DNA from: Nitrososphaeraceae archaeon
GTDB taxonomy: Archaea; Thermoproteota; Nitrososphaeria; Nitrososphaerales; Nitrososphaeraceae
Direction of reading: 5' to 3'
Assembly (NCBI GenBank): GCA_031316115.1
Contig: JALDRC010000001.1
Location: 434,001 to 498,000, forward strand
DNA: 64,000 nt
This document shows positions 26,496 to 29,480 of the stretch, in pieces (positions within the stretch are counted from its first letter, which is position 1; every line of letters begins with the position of its first letter). The notes below the pieces were generated by a model. It saw only the letters and a program-made list of their open reading frames with translations, had not been told where the DNA came from and did not search any database. Made by a program: the position numbers and the translations under genes.

Positions 26496-27287
26496 ATGCC
26501 GTTTGAACCGCTTCTAGTTTTTGATTCGGGAATTGGTTCAATATCTATAATAAAAGAATTGAGGAAGGAAATACCAAACGAAAACATATTGTATTTTGCA
26601 GATAAGGCAAATTTTCCTTATGGAAATAAAACGCATAAAGAATTAGTAATGATTATTGAAAATACAATAAATTACTTGAAAAGATATAATCCAAAGTTAA
26701 TAATAATCGCTTCAAATACTCCTTCAATTCAAGTTTTAGATGAAATAAAGGAAAAGGTCCATATCCCAATATTAGGCGTTATACCGCCGCTGAAAGAAGC
26801 TATAAGAATAACAAAAAAAAATCATATAGGAATAATGGCCACAGAATCGGTGATCAATAGTGAAGAGTTAAGTAGACAAATACAAAAAGATATCCCTCAA
26901 AATATTTTTGTGAATAGATATAATGCATCGCCTTTGATATCTCTTATTGAAAATGGTGACTTCATAAAAAAGAGAGACAAAGTGAAAAATTATATTCATT
27001 GTTTATTAAATGATTTAGGCGACATAGACGTAATAATCTTATCAAGTACTCATCTTCCTTTTATAAAAGATCAATTATCCGAAGCATATCCATTTGTTAA
27101 ATTTATTGATCCTGCCAAAATAGTAGCAAAAAATGTAAAACATCTATTACAAGAAAAAAAAATTATCAAAAAACAAAAACAGGGACGAATGAGAATTCTA
27201 GTTTCCCATGGATTAGATGAATTTCAAGAATTGTTAGGACTGGTGGGGATAAAAGAAAAGGCAGAAGAGGTTTTTTGGTCAGTTTAA
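26496..27287 (+). CDS. Asp/Glu racemase-family protein lacking both catalytic cysteines
   Basis: The 263 residues align with glutamate racemase (MurI): FDSGIGS at the N-terminus (D10, S11), YFADKANFPYGNKT (33-46), then ASNTPS (72-77) and SSTHLP (183-188). In active MurI the last two motifs are (A)CNTA(S) and (G)CTHxP and supply the two catalytic cysteines; both are serine here (S73 and S184), while the aspartate (D10) and histidine (H186) neighbours are kept. Classical cysteine-based racemisation is therefore unlikely. The gene lies 60 bases before a HyuA-like gene on the same strand, and the pair may act together. Archaea lack murein, so no D-glutamate need is obvious. Confidence 0.75.
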   Translation: MPFEPLLVFDSGIGSISIIKELRKEIPNENILYFADKANFPYGNKTHKELVMIIENTINYLKRYNPKLIIIASNTPSIQVLDEIKEKVHIPILGVIPPLKEAIRITKKNHIGIMATESVINSEELSRQIQKDIPQNIFVNRYNASPLISLIENGDFIKKRDKVKNYIHCLLNDLGDIDVIILSSTHLPFIKDQLSEAYPFVKFIDPAKIVAKNVKHLLQEKKIIKKQKQGRMRILVSHGLDEFQELLGLVGIKEKAEEVFWSV

Positions 27288-27347
27288 TAACCAATAAAGA
27301 AAATATATATCATATTCATAACGTCATTCAGTTCAGACAACCCTAAT

Positions 27348-29480
27348 TTGTTAACACCTATGACTAGAAAGATAAGAATAGGAATTGATGTTGGAGGAAC
27401 ATTTACTAAAGCGGTTGCGCTAGATTTAATCAATGCTAAACTAATTGGCAAGGCAACTGTTCCTACTACCCATGATTCAGATCAAGGTGTAGCTAAAGGC
27501 ATAATCATGGCTCTCAAAGATTTAATTTACAATTTCAATATAGATAGGTCTGAAATAGAATTAATCTCTCATAGCACTACTCAAGCAGTAAATGCACTAC
27601 TTGAGGGGGATACTGTTAAAGTAGGAATAATTGGAATGGGAGTGGGTTTAGAGAAATCTAATGTCATAAAAAGAACTAACTTAAAAAATGTAAAATTATC
27701 CTTAAACAAGTATCTATACACATGTCATAGATTTTTGGATACATCAAAATATTTAGAAAAGGACGAAGTTCTTAACGTAATTTCTGCTCTAAAAAACGAA
27801 GGGGCAGAGGTTTTGGTGGTCAGTGAAGCCTATGGCGTAGATGATCCCAGTAACGAGCAATATGTTATGTCAAATTCTGATATTCCTACTACAGCTGGTC
27901 ATGAATTAACTGGTATTTATGGTTTAGAAATTAGAACTTTAACAGCAGCTATCAACGCTGGAATAATGCCAAAGTCAATAAATACTGCCAAATATGTGGA
28001 ATCTGTTGTCAGGAGTGAGAGGATTACTTGTCCTATTATGATAATGAAAGGTGATGGAGGTGTTACAGATATTGAGACATTCAAGAAAAAACCAATCCTC
28101 ACTATTTTATCGGGTCCAGCTGCCAGTGTCGCTGGAGCATTATTACATTCACACGTCTTACAAGGGATATTCATAGAGGTTGGAGGAACTTCTACTAACA
28201 TCTCGATAATCAAAAATGGCAAACCAGAAATCCGATATGTCACTATAATGGAACATCCTACATGTATTCGCTCCCTGGATGTCAGGGTTGCAGGAGTAGC
28301 TGGAGGTTCGCTTATCAGATTCTCTGATAAAAAACTGATTGATGTAGGTCCAAGATCTGCTCATATTGCCGGATTAGAATATTCTTGTTTTGTAAGAGCA
28401 GATGAACTTGAAGATGCTACTGTAATTAATTTCAAACCAACCAATGGAGATCCTGATGACTATATATGTATCCAAACTACATCTCAAAAATTAATAGCAA
28501 TAACTAATACATGTGCAGCAAATGCATTAGGATTGATTAATGAGAACGATTATGCCTATGGAAATAAAGAAGCAGCCATAAAGGCTCTATCACTTTTAGC
28601 AAAAAAAATGAGGATCCAAGATTACAAGGAAGCTGCTAAAATTATTTTAAATCATTCCGTAAAGAAGATCATACACATAATTGAACCGATGATCAAACAA
28701 TATGAATTAAACTCAGAACAAATCAGCTTGATTGGTGGAGGAGGAGGTGCATCTGTTTTAGTTCCATATATGGCAAAGCAACTTGCAGTACCTTTTGAGT
28801 TAGTTGAGAATGCAGAGGTAGTTTCTTCTATCGGAGTAGCTGCGGCAATGATATATGAGGAGATAGAAAAAACAATAAATGAACCAAATCCTGATGAGGT
28901 TTCGTTCTTAATTGAAGAAGCTAAATCTAAAGCACTAAAGAAAGGAGCGCTTCCTGAGTCTATATCCATTCAGACAGAATACGTTACTGAACGTTCAATT
29001 TTGAGGGCTATAGCCTCTGGAAATGTCGAATTAGATATAGGGAAAAAAAATAGAAAGGAATTGAGCCTCGAAGAAGCAAGGAATATCGCGATAGATGCAT
29101 TAGGTAATAAGGATGTTAAACAAATTTTAAAGATGGAAAATTATTTTGGGTTTACATGTGAGATCGTAAAGAAACATTTTTTCATCAAAGAGAAGAAAAC
29201 TCCAGTAATTGTAATTGACAAGTTTGGTAAGATAAGACTCATGCTAGAAAATGCATATGTAATTTTTGGACAAACAGCCCTAAATAACATAGAATCATTG
29301 ATTTATGAAATAAAAAACGAGACGAAAAAAGATCTAGCTCCGCAAGTTCATTTTTTAGATGATATAAAAATAATTGATTTTTCAAGCTTAAATTCTGTAG
29401 AGCATCTTATTAATGCAATCAAAAACGAGTTAGATAAATCAGATATGGAAAATGTAACGATTATAATACGAAAAAATTAA
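27348..29480 (+). CDS. Hydantoinase/oxoprolinase-family protein (HyuA-like)
   Basis: A 710-residue member of the HyuA/acetone carboxylase beta-type ATP-binding superfamily. It opens with the nucleotide-binding IGIDVGGTFTKAVALD, followed by SHSTTQAVNALLEGD; GIFIEVGGTSTNIS and LIGGGGGASVLVPYMA are the later ASKHA-fold motifs. The last 200 residues form a C-terminal extension. A TTG at 27348 gives the longest frame, but the ATG at 27360 (MTRKIRIGIDVGG) fits better. No HyuB partner is adjacent. Likely substrates are cyclic amides or small carboxylates; the exact reaction is unknown. Confidence 0.8.
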   Translation: MLTPMTRKIRIGIDVGGTFTKAVALDLINAKLIGKATVPTTHDSDQGVAKGIIMALKDLIYNFNIDRSEIELISHSTTQAVNALLEGDTVKVGIIGMGVGLEKSNVIKRTNLKNVKLSLNKYLYTCHRFLDTSKYLEKDEVLNVISALKNEGAEVLVVSEAYGVDDPSNEQYVMSNSDIPTTAGHELTGIYGLEIRTLTAAINAGIMPKSINTAKYVESVVRSERITCPIMIMKGDGGVTDIETFKKKPILTILSGPAASVAGALLHSHVLQGIFIEVGGTSTNISIIKNGKPEIRYVTIMEHPTCIRSLDVRVAGVAGGSLIRFSDKKLIDVGPRSAHIAGLEYSCFVRADELEDATVINFKPTNGDPDDYICIQTTSQKLIAITNTCAANALGLINENDYAYGNKEAAIKALSLLAKKMRIQDYKEAAKIILNHSVKKIIHIIEPMIKQYELNSEQISLIGGGGGASVLVPYMAKQLAVPFELVENAEVVSSIGVAAAMIYEEIEKTINEPNPDEVSFLIEEAKSKALKKGALPESISIQTEYVTERSILRAIASGNVELDIGKKNRKELSLEEARNIAIDALGNKDVKQILKMENYFGFTCEIVKKHFFIKEKKTPVIVIDKFGKIRLMLENAYVIFGQTALNNIESLIYEIKNETKKDLAPQVHFLDDIKIIDFSSLNSVEHLINAIKNELDKSDMENVTIIIRKN

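Follow-up and report, generated by a model that had tools for sequence, protein, structure and literature searches.

A glutamate-racemase-like protein of ammonia-oxidizing archaea (AOA) with serine at both catalytic cysteine positions

The window, a 64,000-nucleotide stretch of archaeal DNA, comes from a Nitrososphaeraceae genome of 3.16 Mb that carries archaeal amoA; the host, as an archaeon, is without murein, as the first-pass annotation had rightly supposed. At the locus under study, a gene for a MurI-fold protein is followed on the same strand by a gene for a HyuA-like protein (Table 1). The MurI-fold protein matches the NCBIfam glutamate racemase model TIGR00067 with 166.5 bits, above the curated cut-off of 146.65, and also matches PF01177, whereas its match to TIGR00035 is weak (38.9 bits). 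The closest solved structures are those of MurI (1zuw, RacE, E = 4e-31). Its AlphaFold2 model (mean pLDDT 87, pTM 0.84) aligns with MurI structures in the PDB over almost the whole chain, with TM values of 0.80–0.90 for the top matches, at 22–31% sequence identity to the best MurI chains.

Table 1. Genes and active-site codons at the locus, in window coordinates
Feature	Position	Strand	Basis
MurI-fold (glutamate-racemase-like) protein, Ser/Ser active site, 263 aa	26496..27287	+	ORF, TIGR00067, PF01177, AlphaFold2 model
Ser73 codon TCA, at the MurI first catalytic cysteine position (ASNTPS)	26712..26714	+	Alignment to RacE CNTA motif
Ser184 codon AGT, at the MurI second catalytic cysteine position (SSTHLP)	27045..27047	+	Alignment to GCTH motif
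HyuA-like (hydantoinase/5-oxoprolinase A, ASKHA-type), about 706 aa	27360..29480 (TTG start 27348 possible)	+	PF05378 + PF01968

In MurI, two thiols, one on each face of the alpha carbon, carry out a two-base proton transfer with the help of Asp10, Asp36, Glu152 and His186. A HMMER alignment to RacE places the motifs IIASNTPS (Ser73) and LSSTHLP (Ser184) of the window protein opposite the CNTA and CTHYP motifs, so that serine occupies both catalytic cysteine positions. The rest of the active site is kept: Asp10, Asp36, P41-Y42-G43, Glu152, Thr185 and His186 are all present, and alignment with 13 Cys/Cys MurI proteins shows these residues to be common to both groups with single exceptions, leaving the two cysteines as the only systematic change within the catalytic set. 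The first-pass reading of a double Cys-to-Ser replacement among otherwise preserved MurI motifs is thereby confirmed. MurI / RacE (EC 5.1.1.3; TIGR00067, PF01177) and the window protein share the whole fold, the domain layout, D10, D36, PYG, E152 and the THx motif, but the MurI / RacE motifs ACNTA(S/T), GVxxPGA and GCTHYP are replaced by ASNTPS, GVxPPLK and SSTHLP in the window protein, a member of what we propose as a Ser/Ser subfamily. Aspartate racemase, hydantoin racemase and other PF01177 members belong to the same superfamily but match much more weakly; to our knowledge these enzymes keep at least one catalytic cysteine, whereas the window protein has none.

We compared the window protein with 149 further distinct AOA sequences (150 in all). 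Serine occupies site 73 in 149/149 readable sequences and site 184 in 150/150, including the protein of a diverged high-GC genome (G246) at 29–34% identity. The auxiliary acid/base residues of MurI are near-invariant: D10, D36 and H186 are invariant, as are S11 and PYG, and E152 is found in 147/150 and T185 in 149/150. Further recurring marks of the subfamily are S15, P76, PPL(K/Q) at about positions 98–100, and L187. Other positions are less constant. Site 74 is Asn, the residue present in nearly all MurI examined, in 124 of the AOA sequences, and Ile, Met, Val or Ser in 25 (Ile in 20), and position 119 is variable. Given this variability at positions 74 and 119, the ligand may differ between AOA groups.

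AOA pairs for which dN/dS could be computed gave values of ~0.08–0.24, indicating strong purifying selection. Because Ser/Ser is fixed in all readable AOA sequences and the gene is under such selection, the replacement is not a sign of decay; conservation and dN/dS likewise rule out sequencing error as its cause. The first-pass annotation had asked whether Ser/Ser is conserved in thaumarchaea and had named close homologues with intact cysteines as a sign of decay; the former proved to be so, and none of the AOA sequences examined was a close homologue that retains the cysteines.

A match to the racemase-like gene was found in 176 of 300 genomes drawn from the order Nitrososphaerales, and four families (f1, f2, f3 and f9) hold every such gene among the matches listed. 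All 33 tested genomes of these four families carry amoA, while the other families gave no racemase-like match and no amoA in 22 tested genomes. Within Nitrososphaerales, the gene is restricted to AOA and carried by nearly all of them. The TIGR00067 cut-off was passed in 8 of 28 AOA genomes tested, many AOA members scoring below it, and a second TIGR00067 gene, which would be a canonical MurI, was absent from all 28. The gene can be lost and is not universally essential, being missing or a pseudogene in some Nitrosopumilaceae and Nitrososphaeraceae: genomes G101, G110, G132 and G152 gave no match, and within Nitrosopumilaceae genus g44 the copies in G150 (L100) and G168 (L195) are broken and G153 (L102) retains traces only.

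The Ser/Ser form is not confined to the AOA. In a tree built without the two catalytic columns from 34 Ser/Ser and 13 Cys/Cys MurI rows, the Ser/Ser proteins form one clade apart from the Cys/Cys MurI (support 99/98), corresponding to a single change of state. The clade includes proteins from Fusobacterium vincentii (L118; LASNAPS / LSSTHLP) and Phyllobacterium zundukense (P0001; IASNAPS / LSSTHLP), the two bacterial Ser/Ser members among the matches listed, bacterial sampling having consisted of plasmid and phage collections. Both score below the TIGR00067 cut-off, and both have Ala at positions 11 and 75, where AOA keep S11 and T75. The Fusobacterium record also carries a normal Cys/Cys MurI; the Ser/Ser copy is therefore an additional gene and probably not the peptidoglycan racemase of this bacterium. 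Ser/Ser proteins are found, unlike MurI / RacE, in hosts without peptidoglycan or beside a normal MurI. A more distant MurI from the same archaeal phylum (G430) is Cys/Cys. Viral sequence scans found no viral relatives of the Ser/Ser protein. On a Phyllobacterium zundukense plasmid (L133:8995-10872), the Ser/Ser gene and a gene for a PLP-dependent serine/threonine dehydratase-like protein point towards each other.

The downstream HyuA-like gene begins 72 bp after the racemase-like stop codon if the ATG at 27360 is used. Its product shares PF05378 and PF01968 with the HyuA of N-methylhydantoinase / 5-oxoprolinase systems, and its PDB relatives are N-methylhydantoinase (7hk5, E = 1e-18) and 5-oxoprolinase (6yra, E = 8e-18); the best named models fall far under their cut-off (81 vs 1000 bits). 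HyuA/HyuB systems have a HyuB partner, whereas HyuB (PF02538) is absent from the whole window genome, bearing out the first-pass observation. The coupling of the two genes that the same annotation had proposed did not hold up more widely. HyuA directly follows the racemase-like gene in the same direction, with gaps of about 37–92 bp, in genera g1, g2, g9 and g11 of Nitrososphaeraceae only; it is unlinked in most other genera (e.g. G049, G063, G009 and G024). Seven of seven tested f2/f3 genomes, as well as G022, G173, G087 and Nitrosopumilus maritimus (G093), have the racemase-like gene and no HyuA, and G101 and G152 have HyuA and no racemase-like gene. The limited pairing and the genomes that have the racemase-like gene without HyuA rule out an obligate partnership; the HyuA-like gene is an occasional neighbour and not a required partner. 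In two Nitrosopumilaceae genomes inspected (L116:2783-7109 and L117:4986-9318), the stand-alone HyuA-like gene overlaps the end of a 741–742 aa FTR1-family (iron permease) gene, suggesting that the two form an operon and that HyuA may be connected with iron in these genomes.

The distribution of the Ser/Ser gene bears on a published claim. A 2025 mSystems paper describes glutamate racemase as ubiquitous in AOA, with the necessary catalytic sites said to be present, citing A9A551 of N. maritimus, which matches B. anthracis MurI structurally with TM 0.83 (PMC12363236). The same paper credits AOA with 32–72% of glutamate racemase genes in deep-sea samples, above all in sediment, and builds on the racemase-like gene a role for AOA in D-amino-acid cycling (PMC12363236). 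The genome G093 can be assigned to N. maritimus, since its crotonyl-CoA hydratase matches PDB 7EUM (Nmar_1308) with full-length identity. Its sole TIGR00067 match, L048, is Ser/Ser (VASNTPSL, LSSTHLPF), and we equate it with A9A551 on the ground that the genome offers no other candidate. The published "GLUR" is of the same protein family as the Ser/Ser gene and has the same AOA-only distribution, but where its catalytic sites are described as complete (PMC12363236), the sequences examined here have Ser at both cysteine positions. Since none of the AOA versions examined has the catalytic cysteines, the assignment as glutamate racemase is doubtful, and so is the cycling role built on it. AOA are among the most abundant cells of ocean and soil, and the gene at issue is conserved AOA-wide and would be an instance of the thoroughly studied active site of MurI put to renewed use. 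That the same Ser/Ser form occurs in nearly all AOA, and in bacteria too, goes beyond what the first-pass annotation had noted.

The explanation that we put forward, and to which we give about an even chance as a whole, is that the Ser/Ser proteins form an old and selectively maintained subfamily within the MurI fold, one that the common ancestor of AOA already had and that a few bacteria share, which would not be a cysteine-type glutamate racemase and probably carries out another acid-base or hydrolytic reaction or binds a small acid. The inter-lobe pocket would still bind a small ligand resembling an amino or dicarboxylic acid, and the hydroxyls of Ser73 and Ser184 would lie at helix ends in the thiolate positions, with D10 and H186 behind them. 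The hydroxyl of serine is far weaker as an acid or base than the thiol of cysteine, so that racemization of free Glu by a two-base mechanism would be unlikely in such a site. Lower-barrier chemistry would be more likely, for instance hydrolysis assisted by Ser and His, or a more acidic substrate undergoing elimination, tautomerization or isomerization. Judged from the aligned sequences, retention of the acid/base set favours chemistry over a purely binding function, and two serines in place of the thiols speak against rapid racemization of free glutamate, although conserved catalytic-type residues may also be compatible with a binding role or with slow Ser-based racemization. More tentatively, the Ser/Ser subfamily of nearly all AOA and scattered bacteria may catalyse a reaction new to the fold, in which case the D-glutamate metabolism credited to AOA would be a misannotation. 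The new activity proposed in the first-pass annotation stands to the extent that, within the limits of sequence evidence, the protein is unlikely to be an ordinary glutamate racemase; the cyclic-amide isomerase or hydrolase that it had envisaged finds no specific support, because the pairing with HyuA is local and many genomes with the racemase-like gene have no HyuA.

The main rival to altered chemistry is a binding role, which we regard as possible although rather improbable: the protein would be a non-catalytic binding protein or sensor, whose MurI anion-binding pocket holds glutamate, aspartate, 2-oxoglutarate or a similar small acid. The loss of both catalytic thiols from a retained binding scaffold would fit such a role, as would the variability of residues 74 and 119. 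It is harder to reconcile with the near-invariance of D10, D36, E152 and H186, which mere binding could dispense with, and the gene has neither a fused output domain nor a constant partner. MurI mutants with a single Cys-to-Ser change are impaired, though some activity may persist. Histidine racemase HisR, a two-cysteine enzyme of a different fold, turns over far more slowly when either cysteine is changed to Ser (PMC11602996), in line with the explanation that we put forward. Cys-to-Ser forms of a cofactor-independent racemase hold sulfate or phosphate in the crystal (PMC11602996), in keeping with a binding role. A genuine racemase of glutamate or another amino acid, with the serine hydroxyls as its two bases, is what the published assignment implies (PMC12363236), and this we consider unlikely. 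The window protein does pass the TIGR00067 cut-off, AOA do keep S11, T75, T185, H186, D10, D36 and E152, and the structural similarity of the N. maritimus protein to B. anthracis MurI points the same way; yet neither catalytic cysteine is present in any AOA sequence, that of N. maritimus included, and the bacterial Ser/Ser proteins have lost S11 and T75 as well. Also counting against a Ser-based racemase, we know of no need for D-Glu in AOA.

It is very improbable, in our estimate, that the protein works together with the HyuA-like ATPase on cyclic amides such as hydantoins or 5-oxoproline. The co-directional adjacency in four genera and the PDB relatives of HyuA would favour such a functional pair, but the two genes occur without each other in both directions and are unlinked in most other genera, HyuA is joined to an FTR1-like gene instead in the two Nitrosopumilaceae genomes, and the window genome has no HyuB. 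Least credible is a decaying remnant of a laterally acquired MurI: the broken copies and traces in genus g44 are what decay would leave, but strong purifying selection, fixation of Ser/Ser and active-site neighbours intact in all intact copies led us to reject it for the window gene and for most AOA.

Several further neighbourhoods of the gene recur. At the Nitrosopumilaceae loci (L048 on G093:C1 of N. maritimus; L037-L049, L062-L076), a Snf7/CdvB-like gene lies about 100–125 bp from the Ser/Ser gene in head-to-head orientation, and at most of these loci the Ser/Ser gene also has a tail-to-tail overlap with a cbiF/cobM-like gene belonging to a cobalamin cluster. The CdvB-cobalamin-racemase-like neighbourhood is retained in families f2 and f3, though in a different arrangement. 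We treat this linkage as old synteny; a role in cobalamin synthesis was rejected, as the gene is not co-transcribed with the cbiF/cobM-like or the Snf7/CdvB-like gene and most Nitrososphaeraceae no longer show the linkage. Replacement of CbiJ, which thaumarchaea lack (PMC4303638), by the Ser/Ser protein was also rejected, no reductase feature being present. In genus g2 (L050, L051, L052, L082-L087), a gene for a DtxR-type iron-dependent repressor lies 43–101 bp upstream of the racemase-like gene on the same strand, and in genus g4 (L053, L090) a cis-prenyltransferase (PF01255) gene follows it after 76–109 bp.
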